Source of the DNA: an uncultured Bacteroidota bacterium
GTDB taxonomy: Bacteria > Bacteroidota > Bacteroidia > Chitinophagales > Chitinophagaceae
Reading direction: 5' to 3'
Length of the DNA stretch: 64,000 nucleotides
Assembly: GCA_903839875.1 (NCBI GenBank)
Contig: CAIMDZ010000066.1
Location: forward strand, 1-64,000
Shown here: positions 19,051 through 41,908 of the stretch, in pieces
Numbering within the stretch: the first letter of the stretch is position 1
Layout: the number at the start of each line of letters is the position of its first letter
Notes under the pieces: model-generated
The model's database searches: none
The model's input: the letters and a program-made list of their open reading frames with translations, nothing else
What the model was told of the DNA's origin: nothing
Program-made: the position numbers and the translations under genes

Positions 19051-19236
19051 TTCCTCGTGGAAATACAGGGCGGGAAAAATAGGCGACGTCTCGCAATGGC
19101 GGCCAGGGAGTACGTTACACCTCCCTTCAGGGCCGGGGTTTATAGGCAAATGAGTACTTAGAGTTCGGAATCAACTTCCCCCCTAAAACAACAAACCGCC
19201 CGAAGGCGATCTGATGTTGCCGATATTAGTGTACTG

Positions 19237-20028: not shown

Positions 20029-20117
20029 AAAATTATTTTTAGATTAGAAAATTTGGTTTTCAATGCAATATTAGATTACTGCTACATTATATCTAATGAG
20101 GAATATCATTCATAAGT

Positions 20118-20161
20118 ATGACTATTGTCATGATTTTTCATTTGCCATGGGAATAGTTTTG
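20118..20161 (+). promoter_or_regulatory. FNR-type operator plus -7 box, operon 1
   Basis: ATGAC-TATT-GTCAT (20118-20131), a perfect dyad with the FNR/CRP core TGA-N6-TCA, lies exactly 36 nt (start to start) before TAGTTTTG (20154-20161, TAnnTTTG). The expected transcript start is near 20165, placing the dyad centre at about -41. Being symmetric it could also act on the divergent OB-fold gene, where the mirror position holds only a weak TAGATATA. Confidence 0.72.
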
Positions 20162-20288
20162 CCTTTAATACCAGGTTGTTTATGGTTATTTATCATTAAC
20201 CAATATAATTCTAAAACTGGCAGTTGTGTGAAGAAGTATATTCAAAATCATTACACAATTTGTCAGAATTTGTTATTTGATCAACAAA

Positions 20289-21308
20289 ATGAATAGTAGA
20301 TTTTTTTCAGGATTAACGTTGATGTTTTACTTTGTCTTCACTGTTTTTGCAGGCAGGGCACAGGATTCAGCATTTGTGAAACCAACTGAAAAGTCTGACC
20401 AGCCTTACATTTCATGGGTGAGCCAATATCCTGTGCATAAAGAAAAAGTAAAGCAAAATGTTTTCAGGCGAACGTATGAATTTTTGGTTGGGAAGGGTAA
20501 AGAGAATGAATTAATGAGGCCGGTAGGGGTATTGGCAACCAACCCCGGTTCATTTTGGGTACTTGATCAGGGTAAGGAAACTATATACGAGGTATTGAAA
20601 AATAAGGGGGAAATACCAAGGTCAATAAAAAAGAAAGAGAATTATTTTACCTCCCTTGTTGGTTCATGCAGTATTCCTGGTGATGGTTTGCTGTTTACCG
20701 ATTCACGGCTGAATAAGGTATTCAGGGTGAGTGGTGAAGACCGAAAGCTGGAAGTAGTTAATGACTCATTGCAATTGCTGCAACCCACAGGTATAGCCTG
20801 GTCGGCAGTAACCAATGAGATCTGGGTGGTAGAGACCGGGGGGCACAGGATTTCGGTATTGGATGAAAAAGGGGTCTTGAAAAGAAGGATTGGCAGCAGG
20901 GGTGATGACAAGGGGAAATTTAATTTCCCTACATCAATATGCATTGATAAAAACGGGGATGTCTACGTTGTAGATGCCATGAATTTCAGGGTCCAGATTT
21001 TTGATAAGAACGGTGTTTTCCTATCCATGTTTGGAGAGGCAGGTGATGTGATGGGTTCGCTTGCAAGGCCCAAGGGAATAGCGATTGACAGTTATGGAGA
21101 TATTTATATCGCAGATGCGCTGTTACATTCGGTTCAGATATTCGATAAAGAAGGAAGACTATTGTACAGTTTTGGAAAAAGGGGGCGGGACAGAGAGGAG
21201 TTCTGGATGCCCTCAGGAATATATATTGACAGCAAAAATTACATTTATGTTGCTGACAGTTATAATTCCAGGATACAAATATTTCAACTAATTAACGGAG
21301 GAGGTTAA
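20289..21308 (+). CDS. Secreted NHL-repeat beta-propeller protein
   Basis: 339 residues from the Met at 20289 (MNSRFFSGLT), with a signal peptide ending at about GRAQ. The mature protein is a six-bladed NHL propeller: repeats of the type 'RPxGIAxDxxGDIYIADxxxxxVQIFDKxGxxLxxFGxxG' are clear at residues about 190-335 (e.g. FPTSICIDKNGDVYVVDAMNFRVQIFDKNG). It is periplasmic or exported. It is separated by 1 nt from the dodecahaem cytochrome gene and is therefore cotranscribed. NHL propellers recur beside multihaem cytochromes and are often proposed as assembly or docking factors; the exact role is unknown. Confidence 0.87.
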   Translation: MNSRFFSGLTLMFYFVFTVFAGRAQDSAFVKPTEKSDQPYISWVSQYPVHKEKVKQNVFRRTYEFLVGKGKENELMRPVGVLATNPGSFWVLDQGKETIYEVLKNKGEIPRSIKKKENYFTSLVGSCSIPGDGLLFTDSRLNKVFRVSGEDRKLEVVNDSLQLLQPTGIAWSAVTNEIWVVETGGHRISVLDEKGVLKRRIGSRGDDKGKFNFPTSICIDKNGDVYVVDAMNFRVQIFDKNGVFLSMFGEAGDVMGSLARPKGIAIDSYGDIYIADALLHSVQIFDKEGRLLYSFGKRGRDREEFWMPSGIYIDSKNYIYVADSYNSRIQIFQLINGGG

Positions 21309-21309
21309 G

Positions 21310-23046
21310 ATGAAAATTCAGATAAAATTTGCTTTTATTACATTATTATTAAGCCTGCCGCTGGTTGCAGGCTCCCAGTCTATAATAAACTCAAAACATA
21401 ATTTGTCAGTTAGTGGCCCTGGTACAATAAAGTCTACTACTGAAAATGAGGTTTGTGTTTTTTGTCATGCGCCGCACAGTGCCAGAACTACAGGGCCATT
21501 ATGGAACAAGAGGGATCCAATTGCTACTTATACACCTTACGCCAGTTCTACGATGAAAGCGGTTGTAGGCCAGCCGGATGGCAGCTCCATCATGTGTCTT
21601 TCCTGCCATGACGGAACAATAGCTTTAGGCAGTATCGTCAGCTCCCCTTACCAGATAAGCTTTGGTGGCATTAGTACGATGCCTGCCGGGAAAACAAACC
21701 TGGGAACCAATTTATCAGACGACCATCCTGTTTCTTTTGTATATAATTCGGCATTAGCTACTACAAACGGGCAGCTAAGGCCTCCTGCAAGCATAATCGC
21801 GCCTGTTTCATTAGATACCGGCAGCAGGATGCAATGTACCTCCTGCCATGATGCTCATGATGATACTTACTCTAAATTCCTTGTCATGTCAAACCAGGGT
21901 TCTGCATTATGCTATAGCTGCCATGACAAGACCTACTGGGGCGGAAGCAGCCACAGTACATCTACAAAAACTTGGAATGGCAGCGGCACAAACCCATGGT
22001 TCCATTCTACCTATACCACTGTTGCCGATAACGCATGCGAAAACTGCCATGCACCCCATACTGCAGGCGGGCCTGCAAGGATCATGAATTTTCAGAATGA
22101 AGAAGATAACTGCCTTTACTGCCATAATGGAAATGTTGCAGCGAAAAATATACAGTCACAGCTCACAAAAACCTTTAAGCATAACGTTTACGGGTATACC
22201 GGCATACATGATGAAAACGAGCTTGCCGCACCTGCTGCAAAGCATGTTGAGTGCGAGGATTGCCACAATCCGCATGCGGTAAACAATACCACTGCCACAG
22301 CGCCGTTTGTGAAAGGAAGCAACGTTGGTGTAAAAGGTGTTGACCTGAATGGAACCCCTGTAAACCCTGCCCAGTACGAATACCAGATCTGTTTCAGGTG
22401 CCATGCCGACAACCAGGTAGTGCAGCGCTATACCCAGCGGTACCGCGGTGTGGGCAATAGCCGCCTTGATTTTTCCAGTACTAATGTTTCGTACCACCCG
22501 GTAGAGGCTGCCGGCCAGAATACCAGCATGACCAGCCTTTTGGCGCCTTTAAGCGTGACCAGCAAAATATATTGCAGCGACTGCCATGCCAGTGATGGCT
22601 CCGGATCGCCTGCAGGGCCGCACGGATCATCGAATGTGGGCATATTAAAATTCGCCTATGATACTGCCAGATTCCCTATGTTAGGTACAGGATGGACAGG
22701 GGCAGACCTTAATATGCACTGGCCGCTTTGTTTCTCCTGCCATAATCTTTCTAATGTTACCACTGTACACAATAATATTTCCGGAGGTCACTTCCTGAAA
22801 TATGTGGGTTGTAACACCTGCCACGATCCGCATGGATATGATGGAAACCTGGGGATCAATGGCGGTAATTCGGCGTCGGCATTTGAGAAGCTCCTTAACT
22901 TCGACACTACGGTGATCAGGCCCAACCTGGTGAACGGGAAAATGATAGATATTCAAAACCGTAAATGCTACTTTGTTTGCCACCAAAACCCTTCTGGAAC
23001 AAGTGGTGTATACCATGAACATCTGAGCGCCGGGTCAGGGTTTTAA
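21310..23046 (+). CDS. Dodecahaem c-type cytochrome
   Basis: 578 residues with a signal peptide (LLLSLPLVAGSQS). I count eleven CxxCH motifs (CVFCH, CLSCH, CTSCH, CYSCH, CENCH, CLYCH, CEDCH, CFRCH, CSDCH, CFSCH, CNTCH) plus one CX3CH (CYFVCH) near the C-terminus. The first four, residues about 25-205, form the same module as the two tetrahaem proteins downstream (HAPH..PLWN / PDGSS.MCLSCHDGT / DDHPVSF / QCTSCHDAHD / GSALCYSCH). The remaining eight haems form a different extension. Extracellular or periplasmic electron carrier. It is followed by a terminator (23110-23146). Confidence 0.93.
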   Translation: MKIQIKFAFITLLLSLPLVAGSQSIINSKHNLSVSGPGTIKSTTENEVCVFCHAPHSARTTGPLWNKRDPIATYTPYASSTMKAVVGQPDGSSIMCLSCHDGTIALGSIVSSPYQISFGGISTMPAGKTNLGTNLSDDHPVSFVYNSALATTNGQLRPPASIIAPVSLDTGSRMQCTSCHDAHDDTYSKFLVMSNQGSALCYSCHDKTYWGGSSHSTSTKTWNGSGTNPWFHSTYTTVADNACENCHAPHTAGGPARIMNFQNEEDNCLYCHNGNVAAKNIQSQLTKTFKHNVYGYTGIHDENELAAPAAKHVECEDCHNPHAVNNTTATAPFVKGSNVGVKGVDLNGTPVNPAQYEYQICFRCHADNQVVQRYTQRYRGVGNSRLDFSSTNVSYHPVEAAGQNTSMTSLLAPLSVTSKIYCSDCHASDGSGSPAGPHGSSNVGILKFAYDTARFPMLGTGWTGADLNMHWPLCFSCHNLSNVTTVHNNISGGHFLKYVGCNTCHDPHGYDGNLGINGGNSASAFEKLLNFDTTVIRPNLVNGKMIDIQNRKCYFVCHQNPSGTSGVYHEHLSAGSGF

Positions 23047-23109
23047 CACATTTGCCGACCGGCGCCAGGGCAATGGAATGAACCTGATATCATGCGCCTT
23101 TTGAATATT

Positions 23110-23146
23110 AAATGACCGCTTTTTAAAAAAAATTGCGGTCATTTTT
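23110..23146 (+). terminator. Rho-independent terminator of operon 1
   Basis: AAATGACCGC (23110-23119) pairs with GCGGTCATTT (23135-23144), followed by T residues. It separates the dodecahaem gene from the tetrahaem operon. The rest of 23047-23375 contains only the operon-2 promoter. Confidence 0.8.
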
Positions 23147-23294
23147 ATTACTGGTAAACAGGCCTGTATCAACAAATATCTGTCAAAGGTTATGAATATT
23201 TATGACCAAAATCATTTTTATATCGGGTTGTTTCATTCAAATCCGGAAACTTGCGAAAACGCAGAAAATCAGGTAATCAGAGTCATAAAGCGGA

Positions 23295-23338
23295 CTGATG
23301 TTTGTCATTCGGATGTCACTGGGGTGCATCTACTTTTG
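23295..23338 (+). promoter_or_regulatory. FNR-type operator plus -7 box, operon 2
   Basis: CTGAT-GTTT-GTCAT (23295-23308) with core TGA-N6-TCA, exactly 36 nt before TACTTTTG (23331-23338). Same geometry as the promoters at 20118, 31108 and 37837. The gene starts at 23376, giving a leader of roughly 34 nt. Confidence 0.72.
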
Positions 23339-23375
23339 TGTAATTGATTTATTCTTAACAACAAAAATACATATT

Positions 23376-24011
23376 ATGAAATTTAAAAAATTAGTATTGT
23401 TAGGCTCAATTGTCCTGGGGCTTACACCGCTATGTAATGCGCAGCTGATTCTTGGATCATCTCATGATTTTTCCAATAGTACAACAAGAAATTTAACAGG
23501 AGAACTTTGTATCGTATGCCACGCACCGCACGGTACTGATGCCACCCAGGTGCCTCTGTGGAACCATGCTACCACACAGCAGATTTTTAGCACTTATACA
23601 GGGTATAAATTTCAAGGTATAGCTACCATAACTCAGCCGGACGGGGCTTCGAAATTGTGCCTTAGCTGCCATGATGGTATTACAGCCATGAACCAGTTTG
23701 GCGGTAAAATGCAGGGTAGTACAGGTACTCCGGCGCTTATGAACGGATTTCGTGTATTAGGAACTAACCTGACCAATGACCATCCTATTTCCTTTAAGTA
23801 TGATGCGAATCTTGCCAGTTTAGATGGACGCCTGAAAGACCCGACAATTGCTTTGAGTGGCCTGGGTGGTACAATTGCAGATGACTTGCTGGATATACAA
23901 GGTAAGGTACAATGCCCTACATGCCATGAAGTTCATGACCCAACTATCTACAAATTCGGAAAGATGAGTAATGCCGGAAGTGCACTATGTCTGACATGCC
24001 ATAATAAATAA
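23376..24011 (+). CDS. Tetrahaem c-type cytochrome, OmcE-like (nanowire candidate)
   Basis: 211 residues from the Met at 23376 (MKFKKLVLLGS); the signal peptide ends at about CNAQ. Four CxxCH motifs: CIVCH, CLSCH, CPTCH, CLTCH. The order of landmarks (HDFS, CIVCHAPH, PLWN, PDGASKLCLSCHDG, LTNDHPISFKYD, QCPTCHEVHD, SNAGSALCLTCHNK) agrees with what I remember of OmcE-type tetrahaem filament subunits, as does the size. Extra His residues (HDFS, HAPH, DHP, EVHD) could be distal haem ligands. First gene of operon 2. The filament role is inference. Confidence 0.88.
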   Translation: MKFKKLVLLGSIVLGLTPLCNAQLILGSSHDFSNSTTRNLTGELCIVCHAPHGTDATQVPLWNHATTQQIFSTYTGYKFQGIATITQPDGASKLCLSCHDGITAMNQFGGKMQGSTGTPALMNGFRVLGTNLTNDHPISFKYDANLASLDGRLKDPTIALSGLGGTIADDLLDIQGKVQCPTCHEVHDPTIYKFGKMSNAGSALCLTCHNK

Positions 24012-24087
24012 TTTAAATCACAGAATCAATTCAAATTGATCGAAAAAAGTCAATAAAAATTATTAACAAAATAAAATAAAAATATTT

Positions 24088-24804
24088 ATGAGATTCAAAT
24101 CATTTTTTATCGCAAGTTCCATAGTCCTGGGTCTTACACAATTATGTAACGGGCAAACCGGAACTATAGTAGGTTCCAAACACGATTTTTCATTATCAAA
24201 TAATACCTGGAACTTTTCTTCACCAATTTCAGCGCAATTACAGGGCCAGATATGCCGCCCTTGCCATGCACCGCACAATAGCAATGGCGGGGAGCCTGGT
24301 TTTCTGGGTGTTACAAATTCAGGTTCATACGGGCCATTGTGGGACCATAGTTTATCTAATGCCACTTATTCCATTTATTCAAAAGGGTATAATTTCTGGA
24401 GGGAAGGCGCTTCAACAATCGGTAACCCGGACGGTAGCTCTAAATTATGTTTAAGCTGTCATGATGGTACCGTAGCGCTGGCTAATTTCAGAACGTTTAC
24501 TACAGGAACAACCACTATGGCCAATTTTAACGGCGGGGCCTCTAACCTGGGCACTGACCTGAGCACTTCGCACCCTATCTCCTTTACTTATGACGCAGCA
24601 CTTGCGAGTAAAGATAAAAAGATATGGTCTCCTACAACAACTCCTTCAGGTGTTCATAGCGGAACAATTGACCAGGATATGCTGGAGAATGGAAAAGTAC
24701 AATGTATTTCCTGCCACGATGCACACAATGGCGCAGGTGTAAATCGCCTGTTGATAAAGAGCAATGTTGGAAGCGCACTTTGTTTTACTTGTCATAAATT
24801 ATAG
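24088..24804 (+). CDS. Tetrahaem c-type cytochrome, OmcE-like, paralogue
   Basis: 238 residues, signal peptide ending at CNGQ, four CxxCH motifs (CRPCH, CLSCH, CISCH, CFTCH). It is a close paralogue of the preceding gene, with the same landmarks: KHDFS, CRPCHAPH, PLWDH, PDGSSKLCLSCHDGT, TSHPISFTYD, QCISCHDAHN, SNVGSALCFTCHK. An insertion of about 25 residues separates haem 1 from PLWD. It is 76 bases from the first copy with no promoter or terminator between, so cotranscribed. Two subunits of this type could co-assemble or be expressed as alternatives. Confidence 0.88.
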   Translation: MRFKSFFIASSIVLGLTQLCNGQTGTIVGSKHDFSLSNNTWNFSSPISAQLQGQICRPCHAPHNSNGGEPGFLGVTNSGSYGPLWDHSLSNATYSIYSKGYNFWREGASTIGNPDGSSKLCLSCHDGTVALANFRTFTTGTTTMANFNGGASNLGTDLSTSHPISFTYDAALASKDKKIWSPTTTPSGVHSGTIDQDMLENGKVQCISCHDAHNGAGVNRLLIKSNVGSALCFTCHKL

Positions 24805-24847
24805 TATCCGGCAAACGCATTATTTATAAAAAATAAAAAAGACAATC

Positions 24848-27800
24848 ATGATAAAATCAAATAAAAGATGGTTACTAACGGCATCCCCATGGATGAAGCA
24901 TAGCCTCAGGCTATCATCGTTAGCAATCGGAGGATTATTCTTTACTGCTTTGCTCGTATTCACATTTGGAACAAGTAAGGCACAGACCGGTGGGGTTAAG
25001 ACAGTCAAGGGTGGATCTGTTCGTACAGGTGATCTGACTGTAGGCACTCCTGCAGGTGGTGCACCTTCCATGCCGGTTATTACAGGCGCTACCACAACAA
25101 CTTGTGTTGGCACCGACATTACATTATACAACACTCTTTCAGGCGGGACATGGAGTGCAAGCAACGGAAATGTTACACTTACTCCAAGCGATGCAATCGT
25201 AACAGTTCATGGGAATACCCCTGGTTATACGGTTGTTACTTATACAGTCGGACCAAATTCCATAGCTACCAACGTTACTATTATGGCTCCTATCAGCGGG
25301 CCTGCCGCTGTGTGTATTGGTAACTTCATTAATTTAACTGATGCTACCCCAACAGGTATCTGGACCACCAGTAACCCTGCAGTAGCCATTGTTAACGTTA
25401 CCGGCACTGTTACTGGAATCGGAAATGGTACGGCTACCATTTCTTATCAAAGGATTTCTGACCATGCTACATGCGCGGTATCTACAAATGTTACTGTAAG
25501 TAATAATGCACTGGTAATTACTCCCGCAGTTCCTGCAGTATGTGTGGGAAGCTCAGTTACATTAACCGGTACACCAACCGGCGGGTCATGGGCCAGCAAC
25601 ACTACTACTTTGGCAACCATTGGATCAGCAACAGGTATTGCTAACGGACTGGCAGTAGGTAATCCTACCATTACATATACACAGGGTACTTGCTATGCAA
25701 CCAAAACCCTTATAGTAAGTAATACATTACCTGCAGGCATTTCAGGCGCAACTACTGTTTGCTTAGGCAATACAACTACACTGTTCGATGCTACTTTGGG
25801 TGGAACATGGACGACCAATGATCCTACCATTGCAAACGTTAACTCAGTGGGTATAGTGACAGGTGTTGCCGCAGGTACAACTACTATTACCTATTCTAAA
25901 CTGGGATGCTACAGAACACAGAGTATGACAGTGGGTGCTAACACTACAGCAGCAATAACAGGTAATACGAACATTTGTGTTAGCGGAAGTACTACTTTAT
26001 CTGATACCACTACAGGAGGAACATGGACTACGACCAGCGCTCTTGTTACGCTTACAGGCACCGCTACCACAACAGTTACAGTTACTGCCGGCGTTTCAAC
26101 AGGAAGCGCTGCCATTACTTATAATGCACCAGGTGGTGGTTGCTACCAGGTTATGGTTGTGAATATTAACCCGACATCTGTTGTTGGCCCTATAGTAGGA
26201 CCAGGTACAGTTTGTAAAGGTTCAATAATTAACCTGACCGATCCTTCCAATCCGGGAGGTACATGGAGCACAGCGGATACAAATATTGCAAAAGTTGATG
26301 CCTATGGTCATGTAACTGGTATGGCAGTTGCAGGTGGTACGGTGAATATTATCTATACAAGATTGGGTTGCTCTATTCCGACAATCATTACAGTAAACCC
26401 GTTGCCAACCCTCACTGGTTCTGCATCTGTTTGTTACCGCGGTACTACAACCCTCACTCCGGCCCCGACAGGCGGATCATGGGCAACCAGCGATACAACA
26501 ATTGCTTCAGTTGCAGCGGGTGTCGTTACGGGCGTAGCAATGACCGGCGCGTTTAATATTACCTACACAAGTCCTGTAGGATGTAATGCAATAAAAGCAA
26601 TGACTGTCAATGGTCCTTCAGCGATAATACTCCCAGGTGGAAGTAATACAGCATGTTTGCCCCTGGTTACAGGTGGTGTAGGTACTTATTTATACTTATC
26701 CGACACAGTTTCAGGTGGTGCATGGTCAAGTAGTGCGACAACTGTTGCAACTGTTGGTGCATCTTCAGGTGTTGTTGCTCCTGTTGCTACAGGTACGGTT
26801 ACAATTACTTATACAAAATCGGGTTGTAGTGTTACACAAATGGTTTCTGTTAATCCGCTGCCTAAGATGATTCTGGGTAGTGCATCTGCATGCCAGGGTT
26901 CTACCTTGACATTATCTGATTCTACTTCCGGCGGAACATGGGCCAGCAGTAACACTGCAATAGGAACGATCAGCAGTGCAGGTGGTGTATTTGGTGGTGT
27001 TACCCCGGGTTCTGCGACTGTTTCTTATACAGTGAATGGTTGCGCACAAACAAAAAACATGACTGTTGGCGCTTCTTTGCCAGCCATAAAGAGCGCTTCA
27101 ATCTATGGTTTCACAGTATGTAGTAAAGAAGCTTATATTCTTATCACAGACTCTGCAAGGGGTGGAATGTGGAGCGCAAGCGGTTCTACTGTTTCGTTAG
27201 CTGGCGCGTCTACTTCAGGCTTTGATACAGTGAAAGTGACAGGGATTTCAAATAGTACAGTTACTATTACCTACACAAACGGCGGATGTTACGTTACCAA
27301 AGCTGTTACAGTAGCAGGTACAAGCGCAGCTGCTATCACCCCGGTTAACGGTTTAAATTACGGTTGTACAGGTATCCCTGCCAATTTAAAAAGCGGTGGT
27401 TCTGGTCCGGTGCCTACAGTGGGTACATGGACCAGCAGATATGGGAAAGTTTCTTTTGCTTATGTAAACGATACAACAACTGCTGTAACCGGTACATCAA
27501 CCGGTATAGATATTGTTACATTTACAAGAAATGATAATGGTTGTCTCGCGTATTATACATATGCCATTTATAAACAGCCAAGCGCTATTATCACGCCTTC
27601 AGTTTCTGTTTGTAATGGCACAAACATTACTATAAAGGATACCACAAGGGCCACCGGCAGCGCATGGTCAACAAGCAGCAGTTCAACGGCCACTGCTACC
27701 GTTGCTACCGACTCTACAGCAACCTTTAAGGGAATCACAGCTGGTCTGGTTACAGTAACCTATACTACACCCGGCGGTTGTGCAGTTTATCAGCCAATAC

Positions 27801-29782: not shown

Positions 29783-29807
29783 GGATTGGATTCATTGGTT
29801 TTTCATA

Positions 29808-29837
29808 CAGGCTCCGGATTTCCGGAGCCTGTTTTTT
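29808..29837 (+). terminator. Rho-independent terminator of operon 2
   Basis: CAGGCTCCGGA (29808-29818) pairs with TCCGGAGCCTG (29821-29831), followed by six T. It ends the tetrahaem / Ig-repeat operon. In the remaining 29838-30296 I see only small dyads (GGTATG-TAT-CATACC near 30013) and no gene. Confidence 0.92.
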
Positions 29838-30296
29838 GTATTTTATTGCTGAATTATATAGTGCGGATTAGGCTTCAAAAACCAGGATTGGGATAGAATA
29901 ACATTGAGTCCATGCAGATCGTGGCAAGGATTCGAAAAGAAGCTGCAAAGAATCAAAGGATGCATGTGATGCCAATTATTGTTATGCCGTTTATTGAAAT
30001 AAGGTATGTATCATACCAAATGGCTATCGAAGTCATACATGAATGTATAACTGTGGCCTCACTGATTGCCAACTGGCAATAAAGCAGGGAAAGAACCGGA
30101 AGGATTAGTTTTTTGTGCCGGGTGATTTGATAAAGTTTTTGAAGGGCAGCTGGTATTATCTCAACTTTTCTACGACGTAGAAAAATAACAGACCAGGACG
30201 GTTGTCAATAACCTGATGGAGATAGTAAAAAGTATGTTCTGATTGAGTTTTTGTAAAAATCCTTATAGATATTGGGGCTGTATTGAAAGCTATAAA

Positions 30297-31058
30297 TTAT
30301 TTTATAACCGCTTCTTCCATCATCGCTTCAAATTTATATCCATACCCAAAGTCTTTATTCAGCGTGATCTTACCTTCAAGTACCACAATATCCCCGACTT
30401 TTACTGCCACTGAAGATGTAACCACAAAATCAAACTTTCCATTACTTTCAGTTCCGTCCTGAATGTGAATCCAGTTTTTATCCATAATTGCAGGACTGTA
30501 TCTGGTAACCTGGCCTTTTATCTTCACCGTTTTACCGGCAAATGCTTCTTTCTTAGAAAATAAATTGGCAATAGTGATGCAATCTGCCGGAGTTTCAATT
30601 TTTATTTCTTTTTTTACTTCGGGGTTTGCTTTCCGTGCATACGACTCTGAACCATTTTTGTTACCATTTGCTGCCATAGGCTCAGTAGTCACACCACCCA
30701 GGAATAAAACCTCATCAAATTTTCTGTGCAACTCTTTACTTTCAAATTCCTTCATTGGCATAGCGCCGGTATAGTAATAAGTTTCTCCCGGCTTTGCATT
30801 AATTGTAGGCAAGGCCAGCCATTTCAATGTGTCATTTTCTTTCACGTGGAGGTAAGTGTAGGATGTAGTTTGTATGACCTCCTCTACAACCACTTTATGA
30901 TCCTTTTTAGATTTATCATCATAGGCTTTCGGGCATGGTCTGGAATAGCACACAGGTATTATTGAAAACAGCGCGAAAGCAATCGGAATAATTTTCATTT
31001 TTGTTGATTTTAAGACGAAAAAAAGGTCTTTGAAAAACTCATAATTTCTAATATGCAA
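30297..31058 (-). CDS. OB-fold secreted protein, paralogue B
   Basis: 253 residues as read; an internal Met (MKIIPIAFALFSIIPVCYS, about residue 21, base 30998) is the better start because it opens a signal peptide. The rest mirrors the protein at 19237-20028: YTYLHVKENDTLKWLALPTINAKPGETYYYTGAMPM...FESKEL, a shorter linker, then the OB-fold GKTVKIKGQVTRYSPAIMDKNWIHIQDGT...GDIVVLEGKI. Unlike copy A it lacks a lipobox. It is again divergent from an NHL gene. Function unknown; association with the cytochrome locus is positional. Confidence 0.78.
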   Translation of the reverse strand: MHIRNYEFFKDLFFVLKSTKMKIIPIAFALFSIIPVCYSRPCPKAYDDKSKKDHKVVVEEVIQTTSYTYLHVKENDTLKWLALPTINAKPGETYYYTGAMPMKEFESKELHRKFDEVLFLGGVTTEPMAANGNKNGSESYARKANPEVKKEIKIETPADCITIANLFSKKEAFAGKTVKIKGQVTRYSPAIMDKNWIHIQDGTESNGKFDFVVTSSVAVKVGDIVVLEGKITLNKDFGYGYKFEAMMEEAVIK

Positions 31059-31104
31059 TGTTATGCTGTAATTTCTTCAAAATGTATGAATAAAGTCATG
31101 TTTT

Positions 31105-31151
31105 TTGATGATCACGGTCATCAAATTTTGATCATCCTGAGGCTACTTTTA
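31105..31151 (+). promoter_or_regulatory. FNR-type operator plus -7 box, operon 3
   Basis: ATGAT-CACG-GTCAT (31108-31121), embedded in the longer perfect dyad TTGATGA TCACGG TCATCAA (31105-31124), lies exactly 36 nt before TACTTTTA (31144-31151). The gene begins at 31182. On the other strand the mirror position reads ACATTTTG, a weak -7 candidate for the divergent OB-fold gene. Confidence 0.7.
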
Positions 31152-31181
31152 CAGGCAGTTTCAAAACCAAAAATTTTCAAA

Positions 31182-32261
31182 ATGAAGTCTGGAAAATATT
31201 TTGTCATTTTTATGATCGCAGCGGGTTCATTGCTACTGAATTCCTGCGCTCAATTTCTACACAAACATAATAAAATTGTGCGCAAAGAAAGTGTTCTTTA
31301 TCCCCCTCCGCCTGATACTGCAAGGTTTCAATATCTTACCAGTATCAGCGGTTCTGATTTTCTTGGTGGCCGGTCAAAATTCGGCACTTTTATCATGGGT
31401 GTTGAAGAGGTATCTCAAATGAGCAAGCCTTATGGGATTAGTATGCGTAATGGAAAGTTGTACATATGCGATCCCGGAATTGGCGGACTTGAGATCATAG
31501 ATCTGGCTGCAAAAGAGTATACCAATTTTACACCCGGTGGTCCCGGCCAGTTGAAGTCGGCGCTCAATTGCTACACAGATGAAAACGAATACCTCTACAT
31601 TGCAGATGTTGGCAGACATGAGGTCGTGATCTTTGATAGCATGTTGAACTATGTCACTAAAATTTCCGATACCGGTAATTTTAAACCTACTGATGTTTTT
31701 GTTTTTGAAAATGAGATTTGGGTAACGAATCCTGATAACCATCGTTTGAATGTTTATGACAGGAAATCACACCAGTTAATACGATACTTTGCTGAACAGT
31801 ATGGGGTAGGTGACGATGGGTTTTTATATTCCCCGTTTAATGTATTCGTAACCGATGAAATTATTTATGTAACAGACTTCGGAGATGCCAAGATCAAACA
31901 ATATGACCGTAAGGGGAAATTTATTACTTCAATTGGTAGTTATGGAACAGGACCCGGACAATTTGTAAGACCCAAGGGGATAGCGATAGATCATGAGGCC
32001 AACCTCTTTGTCGTGGACGCCGGATTTGAAAATACACAGATATTCAATAAGAAAGGCCAGTTGCTAATGTTTTTCGGCGGACCCTACAAAGGCCCCGGCG
32101 ATATGTGGCTGCCTGCAAAAGTTATTGTTGACTATGATAACTTAAAGTATTTCCAAAAATATATTGACCCGAAGTATAAACTGAACTACCTGGTTATTGT
32201 TTCTAACCAGTATGGTCCGGATAAAATAAATATTTACGGTTCGATTACACCACTGAATTAA
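31182..32261 (+). CDS. NHL-repeat beta-propeller lipoprotein
   Basis: 359 residues from the Met at 31182 (MKSGKYFVIFM); the lipobox LLNSC gives an acylated Cys. Six-bladed NHL propeller: 'KPYGISMRNGKLYICDPGIGGLEIIDL', 'LNCYTDENEYLYIADVGRHEVVIFD', 'RPKGIAIDHEANLFVVDAGFENTQIFNKKG' are individual blades. First gene of operon 3 and counterpart of the soluble NHL protein at 20289. The membrane anchor suggests periplasmic or surface attachment next to the haem conduit. The exact role is unknown. Confidence 0.85.
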   Translation: MKSGKYFVIFMIAAGSLLLNSCAQFLHKHNKIVRKESVLYPPPPDTARFQYLTSISGSDFLGGRSKFGTFIMGVEEVSQMSKPYGISMRNGKLYICDPGIGGLEIIDLAAKEYTNFTPGGPGQLKSALNCYTDENEYLYIADVGRHEVVIFDSMLNYVTKISDTGNFKPTDVFVFENEIWVTNPDNHRLNVYDRKSHQLIRYFAEQYGVGDDGFLYSPFNVFVTDEIIYVTDFGDAKIKQYDRKGKFITSIGSYGTGPGQFVRPKGIAIDHEANLFVVDAGFENTQIFNKKGQLLMFFGGPYKGPGDMWLPAKVIVDYDNLKYFQKYIDPKYKLNYLVIVSNQYGPDKINIYGSITPLN

Positions 32262-32274
32262 CACATAATTCCTT

Positions 32275-34413
32275 ATGAAGAGCAGGCAGAATAATAATGT
32301 TGTTTATTATGTAAGTGTAATAATCATTGTGTTATTTTTCGGATGCTCTGTAGAACAAACACACAAAACGTTTACTTTTTTCTTTGATGGTGTTGACAAG
32401 GTTATATTTTTTAATGATTATTTATCTAAGGATTCTTTAAGCAAGGATGCAATTGCGAAACGCGAAGGTTTACTAAAGAAAGTGCGGCCCGAACAATTCG
32501 TTCATTTACCTTATAAAGAAAAGAAGTGTGAAAAATGCCACACGCCGGATAAGCGGCTTATAATGGCCATGCCGGATCTTTGTTTTCAATGCCATAAAAA
32601 CTTTGCAGAAAGTTATACCACTCTGCATGGACCTGTAGCTTCTGGTAATTGCACTAAATGCCATAACCAGCACTCATCAAAATACCCTAAACTACTTACC
32701 CGACAAGGCCAGCAGGTATGTACCTATTGTCATAGTCCTTCTTTAATTTTTGCCAACAAAGTTCACCGTGATATAGAAGATGCCGAGTGTACGCTGTGTC
32801 ATAATCCGCATGGAGGAAACAGAAGGTTCATGGTAAAGAATAATATTCCAACTGATCCTAACAGGATCGCATTAATGACTGAGTTAACTTCGCGGCGTTT
32901 ATGCGGTCAGATATTCTGTAAGGAACCGGGAGATGTGACATCCGCTGTGGAAATTAAAATTTATGATGGTAGTAGTAAGGTTGTTGCCACTGTACGTCCG
33001 GATAATACCGGAAAATTCTACCTGACGAATATGCATCCGGGTCAGAACTATACATTTGACATAAAAGGTATGATACCTGAATGTAAAGTGAATATTATGG
33101 ACTGTAACGGCTCGGTTTTGATTGTCGTGGAACGAAACAAGAAAGGAAAGTATGTCTTAGATAAGTCAGCATATGAAACCGTACACGAAGCACTGAATAC
33201 TGCAAACGCGGGTGGCAACTATCTGGGTGAAACATCTGTAAGAATAAATTTGGACAAGCCATTAAGGAAAGATTCCGCCAAAACTCAGGAAGTGATTGTT
33301 GCACCTGCAGAACCGGAGAAAATAATGGAGCCTCCCGTCATAAATAACGTACCCGATCCTTCAAAAGAAAAGGGGAAGATACACGTTAAGGAATTGCCGG
33401 AAAATGTAAGCTTAAAGGATCTGGTTGATGAAAATAAAAAGCTTGATACTAAAGAGACAACAGGAATAGCTGCAGATAATAAGCCGGCAGATTCGGTGAA
33501 ATATAAGGGTAAGATCGTTGTAAAAACAATTCCTGGCAATGTGAAAACCAGTGATCTTATTGAGCACAACAAAGATGACAAACAGAATGACGCAGGAAAG
33601 AGACCTTCCGAACCCAGGCCGTATAAGGGGAAAATAGTTGTCGGCGACGAACCTGGTAATACAAAAGAAATAAATGGTAAACTGAAAAATAATGCAGGCG
33701 GAACAGAGGCAATCAGAAAATATGAAAGGGATAATATTACACTCGTTGACCTGGCTAACCAAATAAACAGGTTGTACGATGGTAATACCATTTGTGTATT
33801 GAATGACTCTGCAGATTATATTGATATTGCACGTGTGGATAAGAAAGGCCGCTTCTTACTTTTTGATTTCCTTGCATACAGGCTCACATTGCCGGACAAA
33901 TCCAGTGGAATAATATCGCAGACAATATTCCTGAATGATAAAATGGAGATCATTGAAACGGTTAATAAGCGGGTGAAAAATGGCCGGTATATTTACGTGT
34001 CTAATTCAAAGGAATATGCTGCCTCACGGGCCGATGTGAAGATAATAGCTGAAAAAGAAAACGCTGCATTGTTCTCCACCATTTATTATGAACAGGCAAA
34101 GGCGTCTATATCTGATATTGGAATTACAGAGCTCGACAAAGTGGTTAATTACCTGAAAGACCATCCTGCAGCAAAAGTGTACCTGGCTGCACATACCGAT
34201 TCCAGAGGTTCGATAGGATACAACCTGCGGCTATCTGAAGACAGGGCAAAAGCTGCAATAAAATACCTTAATACAAAGGGAATAAATAGTAACAGAATTT
34301 CGGGCAAAGGTTATGGTAAAGAGAAACCACTGGATACTTATGTTCCTGCATCGGCAACGGAAGAGGAACAACAGAAAAACAGGAGAGTAGAGATTTATAT
34401 TAAGGACAAATAA
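32275..34413 (+). CDS. Pentahaem cytochrome-OmpA fusion lipoprotein
   Basis: 712 residues with a lipobox-like end of signal (LFFGC). Five CxxCH motifs occur in residues about 80-185: CEKCH, CFQCH, CTKCH, CTYCH, CTLCH. Then comes a carboxypeptidase-regulatory/CNA-B-like beta module (AVEIKIYDGSSKVVATVRPDNTGKF). Three copies of a basic 'KGKI(H/V)V...(E/G)N' repeat lie at about 360-460, then a second beta module. Residues about 595-712 are an OmpA C-terminal domain (AHTDSRG...LSEDRAKAAIKYLNTKGI...GYG...NRRVEI) that binds peptidoglycan. The protein would hold haems at the inner face of the outer membrane, clamped to the cell wall. Confidence 0.9.
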   Translation: MKSRQNNNVVYYVSVIIIVLFFGCSVEQTHKTFTFFFDGVDKVIFFNDYLSKDSLSKDAIAKREGLLKKVRPEQFVHLPYKEKKCEKCHTPDKRLIMAMPDLCFQCHKNFAESYTTLHGPVASGNCTKCHNQHSSKYPKLLTRQGQQVCTYCHSPSLIFANKVHRDIEDAECTLCHNPHGGNRRFMVKNNIPTDPNRIALMTELTSRRLCGQIFCKEPGDVTSAVEIKIYDGSSKVVATVRPDNTGKFYLTNMHPGQNYTFDIKGMIPECKVNIMDCNGSVLIVVERNKKGKYVLDKSAYETVHEALNTANAGGNYLGETSVRINLDKPLRKDSAKTQEVIVAPAEPEKIMEPPVINNVPDPSKEKGKIHVKELPENVSLKDLVDENKKLDTKETTGIAADNKPADSVKYKGKIVVKTIPGNVKTSDLIEHNKDDKQNDAGKRPSEPRPYKGKIVVGDEPGNTKEINGKLKNNAGGTEAIRKYERDNITLVDLANQINRLYDGNTICVLNDSADYIDIARVDKKGRFLLFDFLAYRLTLPDKSSGIISQTIFLNDKMEIIETVNKRVKNGRYIYVSNSKEYAASRADVKIIAEKENAALFSTIYYEQAKASISDIGITELDKVVNYLKDHPAAKVYLAAHTDSRGSIGYNLRLSEDRAKAAIKYLNTKGINSNRISGKGYGKEKPLDTYVPASATEEEQQKNRRVEIYIKDK

Positions 34414-34443
34414 AGTAATTAATGTGATAAAAAATAATTGGCA

Positions 34444-36420
34444 ATGCGCTTTATAAAGGTATTAATACTATATGCCGTTTTATTTCTTCCGGTAAGCGGC
34501 TATGCACAGCAAAGCCTGCTTTCGCTGGGGGCTTGGAATATTTCTGCGTTGTCCGGTGAATTGAAAGTAGGTGGATTATATGGAGCAGGTGAGATACACA
34601 CATACAATATCAGGAACGATTATGTCACATCAAATTATTATGGCGGTTTCATGGTGAAATCGAGCAGTTTTATCTGGAATCCCAATTTTTTGGTTATTGA
34701 TATTGATGGTGGATATTATCCCGAATCCCGGCAGGACCTTTATCTTGTATCCCCAAATGTGTACAATGCTATAAATACTGAAAAGTTGCACCTGGGAGCC
34801 ACATTTTTTCCGAAAAAAATGGTTACACTTAGTACCTACCTGAATTTTGATAACAGTTATGACAGCAGGGAAAATTTATCAGATATCAGAACGAACAGTA
34901 AAGGTTATGGCGGAACATTTTCGTTCCGGAATAAATTTCTCCCCTTAACAGTTACATATAACGAGAGTAATTGGGTTAGCAAGGAATTACTGGATACATC
35001 ACGAGCCAGGGAATTTTCGTATGAGCAGAAAAATTTAGAGGCAAGAGTCTACAAAAGTTTCGGAACGCAGGATAAGAACGAACTGATCTATACCCATCAT
35101 GATTACCTGCGCCGCGATTATAATTTATACTCGATCAGGAATATTTCAGATAATCTCGAACTTCAAAATGGTCTGTTTCTTGATTCGGCAAGAAATTCCC
35201 GTTTTAACTCTGTAATATTTGGCACGGTACAGAAGGGTAATGATAGTTTCAAACAATTCCGCGTTAGCGAGAATGTTTATTTCAAATTGCCGCATCACAT
35301 GACGTGGAACAATAATTACGGGTTCTACTACATTGAACGGGTACCTGAAATCCTGCAACAGCATTCATTCACATCTATGCTGGGGCACCAGTTATTTGAA
35401 AGCTTTCATTCAAGCCTGTTCTATGAATACAACAACGCGCTCGAAACTTCTTACCATGAATTTAGTAACAAGGTTGGTATTGATTTGAGTTATACCAAAA
35501 AAACATTTGCAGACGGGCAAATTTCCATTCAGTTCAATTACAGCAAAATGCGGCAGAACCGGACAAGCAGTGATCTTATGTTGCAAATAATGAATGAGGA
35601 ATACACCTTATCAGACAACAAAGTAGTAATGATAAAAAGGCCTTATGTAGATATTGCAAGTGTTGTTGTAAAGGATGCTACCGGAACGATTATATACCAG
35701 CCTTATTTTGATTACATTTTGGTTGCCAGGAATAATTTTATTGAAATTCTGCGCGTTCCCGGTGGGCAAATACCTGATAATTCGAATGTTTTCCTGTTTT
35801 ATACTGCAACGCAACCGGGGTCTTTCCGGTACGATATTGATCTTGAATATCTTTACGTAAACTGGTCAATGTTTAATAACCTGCTTTCAGTTTATTTCAA
35901 ATCGAACAGGAATGATTTTTCGAATATTCATAATGCCGATAACCTGCTGTTGAATTATCTCACAGAAAACGTTTATGGTATTGGTTTTAAGTATAAGGCA
36001 GCTAATGCCGGTGTGGAATATGATGATTATCAAAGTAGTATTGTGCCATATAAAATGATGAGATACTATTTTATGTGGCAGGGTAATTTCAGGCAGAACC
36101 TTGTTTATTCATTGAATGTAAACTGGCGTGATTATAAAATTCCTACAGAAGATGAGGATAGAATATACAAGGATGTGAACGCAATGGTTGCATACTCTTT
36201 TAACAGGAAGACAAGGGTAGACCTGACTGTCGGATACCAATCCCAGCGAGGCCGTCAAATCAATCTTGACCTGTTTACTTCCAGGCTGAAGGTAACAACC
36301 ATTTATAGAAAATTATTCTTTGTCGCCGGGTTCGATATGTACGACAGGGTATACCTTGAAAATCAGAGAATGACCTATATGGGCGCCTATATTCAAGTAA
36401 TTAAAAAGTTTAAATATTGA
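34444..36420 (+). CDS. Outer-membrane beta-barrel, candidate porin of an electron conduit
   Basis: 658 residues from the ATG at 34444; signal peptide ending GYAQ. The whole mature chain alternates hydrophobic and polar residues with many aromatics and ends in ...YIQVIKKFKY, as outer-membrane barrels do. The size is close to MtrB/PioB-type porins (about 650-700 aa), and the gene lies between two multihaem cytochromes, so a porin-cytochrome arrangement is a natural inference. I see no cysteine at all in it. Residues about 400-460 contain a non-barrel beta module (DYILVARNNFIEIL..). Homology to MtrB cannot be judged by eye. The stop overlaps the next start. Confidence 0.8.
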   Translation: MRFIKVLILYAVLFLPVSGYAQQSLLSLGAWNISALSGELKVGGLYGAGEIHTYNIRNDYVTSNYYGGFMVKSSSFIWNPNFLVIDIDGGYYPESRQDLYLVSPNVYNAINTEKLHLGATFFPKKMVTLSTYLNFDNSYDSRENLSDIRTNSKGYGGTFSFRNKFLPLTVTYNESNWVSKELLDTSRAREFSYEQKNLEARVYKSFGTQDKNELIYTHHDYLRRDYNLYSIRNISDNLELQNGLFLDSARNSRFNSVIFGTVQKGNDSFKQFRVSENVYFKLPHHMTWNNNYGFYYIERVPEILQQHSFTSMLGHQLFESFHSSLFYEYNNALETSYHEFSNKVGIDLSYTKKTFADGQISIQFNYSKMRQNRTSSDLMLQIMNEEYTLSDNKVVMIKRPYVDIASVVVKDATGTIIYQPYFDYILVARNNFIEILRVPGGQIPDNSNVFLFYTATQPGSFRYDIDLEYLYVNWSMFNNLLSVYFKSNRNDFSNIHNADNLLLNYLTENVYGIGFKYKAANAGVEYDDYQSSIVPYKMMRYYFMWQGNFRQNLVYSLNVNWRDYKIPTEDEDRIYKDVNAMVAYSFNRKTRVDLTVGYQSQRGRQINLDLFTSRLKVTTIYRKLFFVAGFDMYDRVYLENQRMTYMGAYIQVIKKFKY

Positions 36421-37745
36421 TATTTATGTGGAATAAAATAGTTTTATTGCTGACCATTTTATCAGTTTCAGTTTTGAAGGTTTCAGCTCAGAATGATACC
36501 AGTAAAACCGGCTGTGCAAGTATATCCTGCCATGGAAATCTGGTGAGTCAGGAAGTTGTGCACCATCCTGTAAAAAGCGGTTGTGATAAATGTCATACGC
36601 CTACCGGCCAGCAGCATCCGCAGAAGAATGTACCTGGTTATAGACTGGCGGATAACATACCTGCATTGTGTTATAAATGTCACGACGAGAATAATACAAT
36701 GAATGTAGTACACTCTCCTGTACAAAAGGGAAATTGTCTTGAATGCCATACTCCGCACAGCTCACCTGAAAGCTATTTATTGAAAAAGAACCCGACCGGT
36801 GCCGTATGTGCGCAATGTCACACATTAGAGTCGGCAAAGAAAAAATATAAACACGACCCGGTTAGCAAAGGTGAATGTGCCAAATGCCATGATCCGCACC
36901 AATCCGACATAAAGAGGCTATTGATAAAGGAACCTCCGGCATTGTGTTTAAAATGCCACAAACAGCAGGCTGAAGAAATCAAAATGGAAAATGTACACCC
37001 GCCTTTCCAGAACAATTGCCTGAACTGTCATAACCAGCATAGTTCGAATGAAGAAAAATTATTGGACCTTACCCCGCAAAACCTGTGTGTTTATTGCCAT
37101 GACGATATTCAGAAGAAGATTGATAAGGCAACAACTGTGCATGGAGCTATCAATGATAAACGGTCATGTATCAACTGCCATAATCCTCATGCTTCAAACC
37201 AAAAGAATTTTTTGGTTAAAGATGCTAAAACCTTATGCTTAAGTTGCCATGACAGAACTTATACAACAGGCCCCAGGAAAATTGATAATATCAGCCAGAC
37301 ATTGCAGAAGAGTAAAGTAGTGCATCAGGCAATTGATAAGGTAGGTTGCGTAGGTTGCCATGATCCTCATGCTTCCAGCAATCCGTTCCTGTTATCAAAA
37401 GCATTCCCATCGGGTTCATATGCTGCGGCAAACAAAGATAATTTTGCGGCCTGCTTTAGTTGTCATAAAAGTGAAATGATCGAGAAACCAACCACAACCG
37501 CCACCGGTTTCAGAAACGGGGATAAAAATCTTCACTTTGTTCACGTTAACGGTGAAAAGGGAAGAAGCTGTACCATCTGTCATAATCCTCATGGGTCTGT
37601 TAACGAACACCTTATAAATGAAAAGACACAATTTGGTAGCTGGGAAATGCCGTTAAGGTTCAAGCCTCTTGAAAATGGCGGCTCATGCTCTCCAGGTTGT
37701 CATGTGGAAAGAAAGTACGAAAGGGTTAACGCTATAACGCATTGA
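36417..37745 (+). CDS. Pentadecahaem c-type cytochrome with doubled CxxCH motifs
   Basis: 442 residues, signal peptide ending at VSAQ; the start ATGA overlaps the previous stop (an alternative ATG lies at 36426). Thirteen CxxCH motifs are seen (CDKCH, CYKCH, CLECH, CAQCH, CAKCH, CLKCH, CLNCH, CVYCH, CINCH, CLSCH, CVGCH, CFSCH, CTICH). A CX4CH (CASISCH) lies at the N-terminus and a CX3CH (CSPGCH) near the C-terminus, giving up to 15 haems in about 420 residues. The repeating pattern 'C..CH.PH......L......LC..CH' is the doubled-CxxCH family seen in DmsE/MtrA-like electron carriers, typically inserted into the barrel. Last gene of operon 3. Confidence 0.92.
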   Translation: MIFMWNKIVLLLTILSVSVLKVSAQNDTSKTGCASISCHGNLVSQEVVHHPVKSGCDKCHTPTGQQHPQKNVPGYRLADNIPALCYKCHDENNTMNVVHSPVQKGNCLECHTPHSSPESYLLKKNPTGAVCAQCHTLESAKKKYKHDPVSKGECAKCHDPHQSDIKRLLIKEPPALCLKCHKQQAEEIKMENVHPPFQNNCLNCHNQHSSNEEKLLDLTPQNLCVYCHDDIQKKIDKATTVHGAINDKRSCINCHNPHASNQKNFLVKDAKTLCLSCHDRTYTTGPRKIDNISQTLQKSKVVHQAIDKVGCVGCHDPHASSNPFLLSKAFPSGSYAAANKDNFAACFSCHKSEMIEKPTTTATGFRNGDKNLHFVHVNGEKGRSCTICHNPHGSVNEHLINEKTQFGSWEMPLRFKPLENGGSCSPGCHVERKYERVNAITH

Positions 37746-37768
37746 TCACCAAAGCTATTGGAAATATT

Positions 37769-37799
37769 GCCTCTGCAAACTCTTTTGCAGGGGCTTTTT
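37769..37799 (+). terminator. Rho-independent terminator of operon 3
   Basis: GCCTCTGCAAA (37769-37779) pairs with TTTGCAGGGGC (37784-37794, one G-T pair), followed by T residues. Confidence 0.88.
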
Positions 37800-37814
37800 G
37801 GTGTAATCATTTGC

Positions 37815-37880
37815 CTGACGATACTCATAAATTAACATGACATTACTCATATTTTTTAATGTATCAGACAGATACTTTTG
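37815..37880 (+). promoter_or_regulatory. Two FNR-type operators plus -7 box upstream of the FNR-like gene
   Basis: CTGAC-GATA-CTCAT (37815-37828) and ATGAC-ATTA-CTCAT (37837-37850) both contain TGA-N6-TCA and are 22 nt apart, about two helical turns. The second is exactly 36 nt before TACTTTTG (37873-37880). The gene would therefore be controlled by its own product. Confidence 0.72.
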
Positions 37881-37944
37881 TGTCTTGCTAAATACCCATA
37901 AAGACAATAATATAATTTTAATATAAATTATTTAACTGTTAAAA

Positions 37945-41885: not shown

Positions 41886-41908
41886 TCACGGTTTAGCTTA
41901 TTAAGCTT

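Follow-up and report, generated by a model that had tools for sequence, protein, structure and literature searches.

Paired CRP/FNR-type operators at four electron-transfer operons of an uncultured Chitinophagaceae bacterium and their probable place in a low-oxygen or redox regulon

The stretch of DNA analysed here, called the window throughout, comprises positions 1 to 64,000 (64,000 nucleotides, nt) of contig CAIMDZ010000066.1 (GenBank assembly GCA_903839875.1, forward strand) from an uncultured bacterium of the Chitinophagaceae (Bacteroidota). It encodes four electron-transfer operons on the plus strand, all headed by one type of operator: two TGA-N6-TCA dyads of the CRP/FNR kind, 22 base pairs (bp) apart, followed at a fixed distance by the -7 box of Bacteroidota. 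A preliminary description of the window had recognised one dyad per promoter and had assigned the operator to the FNR-like regulator encoded in the fourth operon. The layout of the promoters has stood up and has gained a second dyad; the main user of the operator now appears rather to be a receiver-CRP fusion protein encoded elsewhere in the genome.

The four operons of the window

Operon 1 (20289..23046) consists of a gene for an NHL-repeat protein (20289-21308) and one for a multihaem cytochrome of the Paired_CXXCH family (21310-23046). Operon 2 (23376..29782) encodes two further Paired_CXXCH cytochromes (23376-24011 and 24088-24804) and an Ig-repeat protein of 1644 amino acids (aa) with a type 9 sorting tail (24848-29782); GldN is also encoded in the window and, together with the sorting domain and the type of -7 box, points to a member of the Bacteroidota. 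Operon 3 (31182..37745) is made up of an NHL-type protein (31182-32261), an OmpA-multihaem protein (32275-34413), a frame at 34438-36420 and a Paired_CXXCH cytochrome with many haems (36417-37745). The frame at 34438-36420, labelled a barrel in the preliminary description, matched no Pfam family above cut-off. Operon 4 starts with the FNR-like regulator (37945..38646), and the remainder (38727..42988) encodes a CcsB-like cytochrome biogenesis protein (38727-41885; 163.1 bits, under the model cut-off of 187.6) and a protein matching DUF4919 (41909-42988), which had earlier been labelled TPR. The window DNA gave no Rfam match at all.

Promoter architecture

The pattern TGA-N6-TCA, 23 bases, TAnnTTTR matches the window four times, solely at the heads of the four operons. 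The proximal dyads are ATGACTATTGTCAT (20118..20131), CTGATGTTTGTCAT (23295..23308), ATGATCACGGTCAT (31108..31121) and ATGACATTACTCAT (37837..37850) for operons 1 to 4, respectively, and the corresponding -7 boxes are TAGTTTTG (20154..20161), TACTTTTG (23331..23338), TACTTTTA (31144..31151) and again TACTTTTG (37873..37880), all on the plus strand. All eight positions had been given correctly before, as had the distance of 36 nt, start to start, between dyad and box at all four promoters. The statement that such a coincidence has a tiny chance probability was also confirmed: 100 dinucleotide shuffles of the window yielded on average 0.06 matches, and at most one. When searched for alone on both strands, the dyad as previously defined has eight matches (20118 counted on each strand) against 1.0 expected, in part because a second dyad, overlooked until now, stands exactly 22 bp upstream of each proximal one. 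These distal dyads are ATGAGGAATATCAT (20096..20109), GTAATCAGAGTCAT (23273..23286), ATGAATAAAGTCAT (31086..31099) and CTGACGATACTCAT (37815..37828), likewise on the plus strand; the one at operon 2 has five of the six core bases and the other three are complete. With up to one mismatch allowed, the tandem pattern occurs four times in the window against 0.22 expected, which rules out a single-dyad model for these promoters.

A dyad centred at -41.5 is the textbook class-II position of activators of this superfamily. According to the sections available of a study on Flavobacterium psychrophilum (PMC9723704), mapped transcription starts put the TAnnTTTG box between -12 and -5. With the boxes of the window set accordingly, a placement borrowed from another genus, transcription would start at 20166, 23343, 31156 and 37885, and the proximal and distal dyads would be centred at -41.5 and -63.5. 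The class-II geometry proposed earlier is thus consistent with the mapped Flavobacterium starts, and a centre at -42 is given for one FNR promoter, that of H. seropedicae fnr1, in the available part of PMC5934665. The promoters had also been described as lacking a -33 element; this agrees with the 76 sites found genome-wide (see below), since among them none of the columns separating dyad from box reaches more than 50% conservation. The promoter architecture as described here, which rests on sequence, is hardly in doubt.

Conservation in related genomes

We searched 99 genomes and defined as relatives the nine, besides the genome of the window itself, that encode the OmpA-haem protein of operon 3 at E<=1e-40 (G320 and L078 are evidently one genome and were counted once). 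The preliminary description implied that the motif should stand upstream of homologous operons in relatives, and for operons 3 and 4 this proved to be so. At operon 3, both dyads and the box are kept with exact spacing in all nine relatives, the distal dyad of G320 having five of six core bases; the final A of the operon 3 box is kept in 8 of the 9. At operon 4, both dyads are kept in 8 of 8 relatives, along with a TAnnTTTG box in six; the remaining two have degenerate boxes, TTCCTTTG in G320 and TAATATTG in G306 (the latter located by eye). The core columns are 0.99 identical at both promoters, as against 0.42 in the 22-base spacer of operon 3 (10 rows) and 0.33 in that of operon 4 (8 rows, excluding G306). 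For operons 1 and 2, the stretches of the relatives that were examined contain no homologues and hence provide no footprint.

Genome-wide sites and the putative regulon

The genome to which the window belongs is available as 226 contigs and is 97% complete. The loose pattern with a gap of 23 has 76 sites in it, compared with 8 in a reversed control, suggesting that about 70 promoters of this genome carry the operator; the scan thereby rules out that it is private to the four operons of the window. Among the 76 sites, columns outside the fixed pattern are also biased: C or T follows TGA in 86%, A or G precedes TCA in 90%, T follows TCA in 78% and G follows TTT in 70%. At an offset of -22, 26 of the 76 sites have a second dyad with at least five of the six core bases, and 18 have all six, whereas every other offset from -50 to -14 gives at most three such sites. 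A stricter pattern with the gap free to vary from 13 to 33 has 34 matches against 2 in the control, with gap 23 used 22 times, gap 24 ten times, and gaps 30 and 33 once each. Since 32 of the 34 strict matches have a gap of 23 or 24, the spacing tolerates one extra base. The invariant spacing claimed for the window holds there (4/4) and does not extend to the whole genome, in which both gaps are used.

Of the 76 sites, 30 that lie outside the window were followed downstream: for each, the protein of the longest same-strand frame starting within 500 nt was compared with Pfam. These sites were chosen by hand, mainly for good dyads and some for a recognised product, and are therefore no fair sample of the regulon. 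Pfam matches were obtained for 26 of the 30 proteins, while four match no family. Downstream of sites lie genes for the cbb3 oxidase CcoNO and the oxygen-independent coproporphyrinogen oxidase HemN, both over the NCBIfam cut-off, together with two PFOR-type enzymes, NuoA, a cytochrome c, two Usp and two BON proteins, Hsp20, baeRF, Nramp, a P-type ATPase, MlaE and a haem-binding domain. The cbb3 oxidase, HemN and PFOR belong to the usual low-oxygen gene set. By such established knowledge, the site-linked genes look like a low-oxygen and stress set, and the sites very probably make up a low-oxygen or redox regulon. In F. psychrophilum, cbb3 oxidase and haem synthesis are raised under oxygen limitation, as stated in the portion of PMC9723704 at hand.

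A candidate small-RNA array under the tandem operator

One locus of the genome (L031, G000:C221:4080-5100) contains five short units in a row on one strand, and the only open frame in it, of 64 aa, is on the opposite strand. Four of the five units are among the 76 genome sites; in unit 1 the distal dyad is at 4125, the proximal dyad at 4147 (5/6) and the box at 4182. Each unit ends in a terminal hairpin followed by T-rich sequence, with fold z-scores from -1.4 to -4.2. In a DNA search of 60 genomes, the own one included, the body of unit 2 was matched at E<1e-3 in four genomes of the same genus, twice in one of them, and all five of these outside copies carry two intact dyads at the 22-bp distance together with a box. 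These related units lie in loci L110, L111, L112 and L114. In an alignment of ten units, six of the nine pairs of the terminator stem have changed on both sides. Taken together, these features suggest that the array units are likely to be transcribed small RNAs. The tandem promoter of the small RNA is also present in G274, a genome with no protein similar to that of 37945-38646 at E<=1e-30.

Matches to the array at E<=1 occur in 59 of the 60 genomes and are mostly due to chance. Of the loci read, five lack the operator and were discarded: three with weaker hits to the body (L116-L118) and two with hits elsewhere (L113, L115). No Rfam family reached its gathering score for L031 or its relatives, and the sub-threshold matches to FopS, STnc40 and FnrS were treated as chance. 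In G061 and G237, which belong to one genus, several near-identical promoters, TGATTAATATCATAGTTT...TATAAATAGTTTTG, stand at different places; these may represent a repeat scattered over the genomes or a further RNA present in several copies.

The regulator encoded in operon 4

The window regulator (37945-38646) contains the Pfam domains cNMP_binding and HTH_Crp_2. Its CxxCx4C motif, a fourth cysteine and the EQVSR residues of the recognition helix are invariant in the window protein and in eight close orthologues (47-56% identity); of the nine relatives with operon 3, eight encode such an orthologue. The fourth cysteine aligns to a cysteine of the FNR structure chain that is presumably a cluster ligand, and E-QV-SR matches E-TI-SR. 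Judged by the four cysteines and this helix, the protein looks FNR-like, in line with the preliminary description, and is probably an iron-sulphur protein. Against the NCBIfam model for Fnr (NF008365; cut-off 228) it reaches 45.5 bits and is therefore called FNR-like here, not Fnr in the strict sense; moreover, its best matches in the PDB are other Crp/Fnr proteins (2gau, 48.8 bits; 7ets, 46.9 bits), with FNR chains at about 32 bits. The proximal dyad of its own operon keeps CTCAT in 7 of the 8 aligned rows, and the C in question is found in 5% of the 76 sites. The frame has no ATG, GTG or TTG ahead of the first cluster cysteine, so that translation would have to begin at an unusual codon, ATT at 37945 or CTG at 37936. 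In G275 (contig C40, locus L151), a regulator related to another superfamily member of the genome, C24, and one of the window type are encoded at 680-1348 and 19204-19890, about 18 kilobases apart, with operon 3 between them.

This protein had been put forward as the regulator of the operator. Stated in that way, the claim finds no support: about 70 promoters of the genome appear to carry the operator, its strict form occurs in 146 of 247 genomes of the class, and in two site-carrying genomes the sole HTH_Crp_2 match is a receiver-CRP fusion (see below). Whether the window protein has some role at its own four sites we would put at even odds.

Receiver-CRP fusions and the distribution of the operator in the class

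HTH_Crp_2 has six matches in the genome: the window protein, C24 (a four-cysteine protein), C186 (CRP-like), C84, and two fusions, C11 and C98, which combine receiver (REC), cNMP and HTH_Crp domains; Pfam gives the same domain order in four proteins. The phospho-acceptor Asp motif is present in 12 of 13 fusions. Beside C11 lies a gene for a kinase with HATPase_c, HisKA and PAS domains, and by eye a kinase-like frame adjoins 11 of the other 12 fusion genes. In the C11 locus (L077, G000:C11:13000-19000), genes for a BON protein, the PAS histidine kinase, the fusion and an FtsH-like protein form a run, with an Hsp20 gene divergent from it; one class-II site is upstream of the run and another faces the Hsp20 gene. 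Eleven fusion loci were translated from 10 other genomes, each a member of the high-site set described below; their fusion-gene neighbours include Usp and P-type ATPases, and tandem class-II sites lie directly 3' of the fusion gene in three of the 11 (G237, G013 and G124).

The strict motif occurs in 146 of the 247 genomes, the own genome having the highest count (38), against a control total of 2; the tandem pattern occurs in 100 of the 247, with none in the control. From the 247 genomes, two sets of 25 were selected by hand on the strict-site count, one rich in sites (high-site) and one without any (zero-site); tandem counts played no part in this, and the zero-site set was chosen with a view to family diversity. 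These 50 genomes were searched with the DNA-binding half of the fusion and with the C24 protein, and a co-occurrence table was built for the fusion, which was called when the best hit lay in an open frame of at least 350 aa. A fusion was found in 22 of the 25 high-site and 9 of the 25 zero-site genomes (p 3e-4, uncorrected for kinship). Tandem sites are present in 26 of the 31 genomes with a fusion, in contrast to 1 of the 19 without (Fisher p 3e-8, likewise for these chosen genomes and uncorrected). Furthermore, a census of HTH_Crp_2 in 13 of the 25 high-site genomes gave a single match in each of G239 and G124, a fusion in both cases; these genomes have 7 and 6 strict sites, respectively, and two tandem sites each. 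From this distribution we infer that the fusion is, rather more probably than otherwise, the main user of the operator.

Divergent genes and probable two-way operators

Two genes that the preliminary description had overlooked diverge from the operons on the minus strand, one at operon 1 (19237..20028, 263 aa) and one at operon 3 (30297..30998, 233 aa). The proteins are paralogues with 46% identity and neither has a Pfam match; both look exported, and we take them to resemble neighbours of nitrite-reductase operons. A -7-like box for the minus strand lies at a gap of 23 from the distal dyad in each case: TAATATTG (20066..20073) at operon 1 and TAACATTG (31056..31063) at operon 3. For such a divergent promoter the distal dyad would be the proximal one. 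At operon 3, a reverse box with five of six matches is present in the own genome and in all nine relatives (gap 23 in eight, gap 24 in G320; three of these boxes start with C), and a homologue of 30297-30998 is divergently encoded in all nine, the copy of G270 being cut by a contig end. Because the reverse boxes and divergent genes are conserved at operon 3, operons 1 and 3 are likely to have shared operators that work in both directions. This does not hold generally: a reverse box is present in 1 of 8 operon 4 promoters and at 4 of the 26 tandem sites of the genome (3 of the 50 non-tandem sites; about 2% at control offsets), so that a two-way reading of every tandem site is unsupported. In four places the full pattern was seen on both strands, with a box on each side of one dyad pair (G195:C56:52439-52532, G061:C9:95761-95854, G182:C11:986316-986409 and G005:C94:14474-14567).

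Proposed mechanism and alternatives

Taken as a whole, the observations are best explained, with a probability of roughly 0.6, by class-II promoters that depend on an activator and form part of a genome-wide low-oxygen or redox regulon, with the receiver-CRP fusion as the main user of the operator. Architecture, conservation, regulon and co-occurrence are read from sequence, while binding, activation, the signal and the part played by phosphorylation are inferred. An activator dimer of the CRP/FNR superfamily on the proximal dyad at -41.5 would stand in for the -33 element and recruit the housekeeping polymerase of Bacteroidota to the TAnnTTTG box. At tandem promoters, including all four of the window, a second dimer 22 bp upstream (-63.5) would add a contact or cooperativity; as 22 bp is about two helical turns, both dimers would lie on nearly the same face of the DNA. 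At operons 1 and 3, one pair of dyads would serve both directions, each dyad being proximal one way and distal the other. The main user would most likely be the fusion response regulator (C11, C98), driven by a PAS histidine kinase, and phosphorylation would favour paired dimers. The FNR-like window protein would be a cluster-bound second user, probably on the same operators, tying the multihaem operons to lack of oxygen. A bolder version, which we advance tentatively and hold at somewhat less than even odds, is that the phosphorylation-controlled fusion could be a master low-oxygen regulator across much of the class, acting through a symmetric two-way double operator on small-RNA arrays and multihaem operons, with an iron-sulphur FNR competing or cooperating there.

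Several observations weigh against the fusion as main user of such promoters. The tandem arrangement is found at 26 of the 76 own sites, that is, about a third. Three genomes in which no fusion was called, G122, G020 and G110, have strict sites (7, 6 and 6, respectively), which means that other members of the superfamily can use the operator, and both strict and tandem sites are absent from five of the 31 fusion genomes. In G239, no kinase frame adjoins the only fusion gene. Fusion status rests on frame length, and the Fisher values are overstated because the genomes are related. In addition, the window regulator may be the real user of the four window sites, given its FNR-type recognition helix and its tight linkage to operon 3.

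The last point leads to an explanation along the lines of the preliminary description: the 37945-38646 protein alone would sense oxygen by means of an Fe-S cluster and switch on the four operons, and the other sites of the genome would belong to other superfamily members sharing its preference. It would account for the invariance of the four cysteines (CxxCx4C and the fourth-ligand position) and of E-QV-SR in the window protein and its eight orthologues, for the finding that all but one of the nine operon 3 relatives encode an orthologue, and for the CTCAT kept at the regulator's own promoter. The tandem operator, however, is also found in genomes without such a protein and at many other promoters here, and the best PDB sequence matches of the protein are not FNR; we consider this explanation unlikely. 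Much less probable still is that another member, C24, C186 or C84, is the main user. All three are encoded in the genome, and by eye the recognition helices of C186 and C84 have E and R at the core-contact positions, but that of C24 lacks both (RQQVTQQ), and in the high-site genomes G232, G048, G239, G013 and G124 the C24 protein matches only a fusion at E<=1e-10.

Two further alternatives concern the distal dyad and the signal. The distal dyad could be a brake, or could serve the divergent gene only, and have no part in forward activation, as the divergent genes with correctly spaced boxes at operons 1 and 3 and their conservation at operon 3 in all nine relatives would allow. The scarcity of reverse boxes at tandem sites and at operon 4, and the small-RNA units, which follow one another on a single strand, make this quite improbable. 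As for the signal, members of the superfamily with such core sites are generally understood to serve nitric oxide, nitrate or cell redox in other phyla. A signal of this kind in place of oxygen would be compatible with fusion-driven class-II promoters, yet it appears doubtful, given that the cbb3 oxidase, HemN and PFOR among the targets are the usual low-oxygen set and that, in the sections available of PMC9723704, oxygen limitation increases cbb3 oxidase and haem synthesis in F. psychrophilum.

Comparison with known systems

Low-oxygen switching seems poorly described in Bacteroidota. Among the matches listed in our literature search, with few subscription journals covered, no title or abstract opening names an FNR-type low-oxygen operator for this phylum. 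A fixed double operator with the Bacteroidota box, its spread through the class, a connection with receiver-CRP fusions and its use at small-RNA arrays were likewise not found among the matches listed (including the available parts of PMC11697453, PMC9723704, PMC5934665, PMC9239204 and PMC12632263); subscription journals were thinly covered, so that this negative is weak evidence of absence. The fixed promoter grammar allows the regulon to be listed in any such genome, and the operator links electron-export cytochromes to a regulator. The receiver-CRP fusion as master switch and the row of small RNAs under the operator are offered as candidates.

FnrS is an FNR-activated small RNA of enterobacteria. 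The array resembles it as a small RNA under an FNR-type operator and differs in sequence, the match in one relative (22.1 bits against a cut-off of 60) being no meaningful similarity. Like FopS of Bacteroides (RF04319), the array units are short paralogous RNAs in Bacteroidota; FopS, in contrast, has canonical sigma-ABfr promoters according to the part of PMC11697453 available, whereas each unit here has a tandem operator, and the Rfam score is 24.2 against a cut-off of 56.

Among regulators, the window protein shares cNMP and HTH_Crp_2 domains, an aligned fourth cysteine and the E-xx-SR helix with the FNR [4Fe-4S] sensor of PDB 5cvr and 5e44, which we take to be that of Aliivibrio fischeri. 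It departs from FNR in aligning to the FNR chains at 31-32 bits, in its N-terminal spacing CxxCx4C and in its score below the NCBIfam cut-off. The fusions are like response regulators with a CRP-type output, with REC-cNMP-HTH_Crp order in four proteins and the Asp motif in all but one of 13. The matches listed in the literature search included no regulon or operator for proteins built in this way.

Class-II FNR promoters as such are already known. The E. coli FNR site, as generally described, has a flanking T, whereas A or C flanks the core in 70% of the sites here. As in the class-II promoters of E. coli FNR and CRP and of H. seropedicae fnr1 (available part of PMC5934665), a TGA...TCA dyad, here predicted to be centred near -41.5, would replace the upstream element. 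According to the authors of that paper, in the same part, the relevant group of promoters has no further Fnr site. Unlike these promoters, those described here have the box TAnnTTTG instead of TATAAT, and about one site in three has a second dyad exactly 22 bp upstream.

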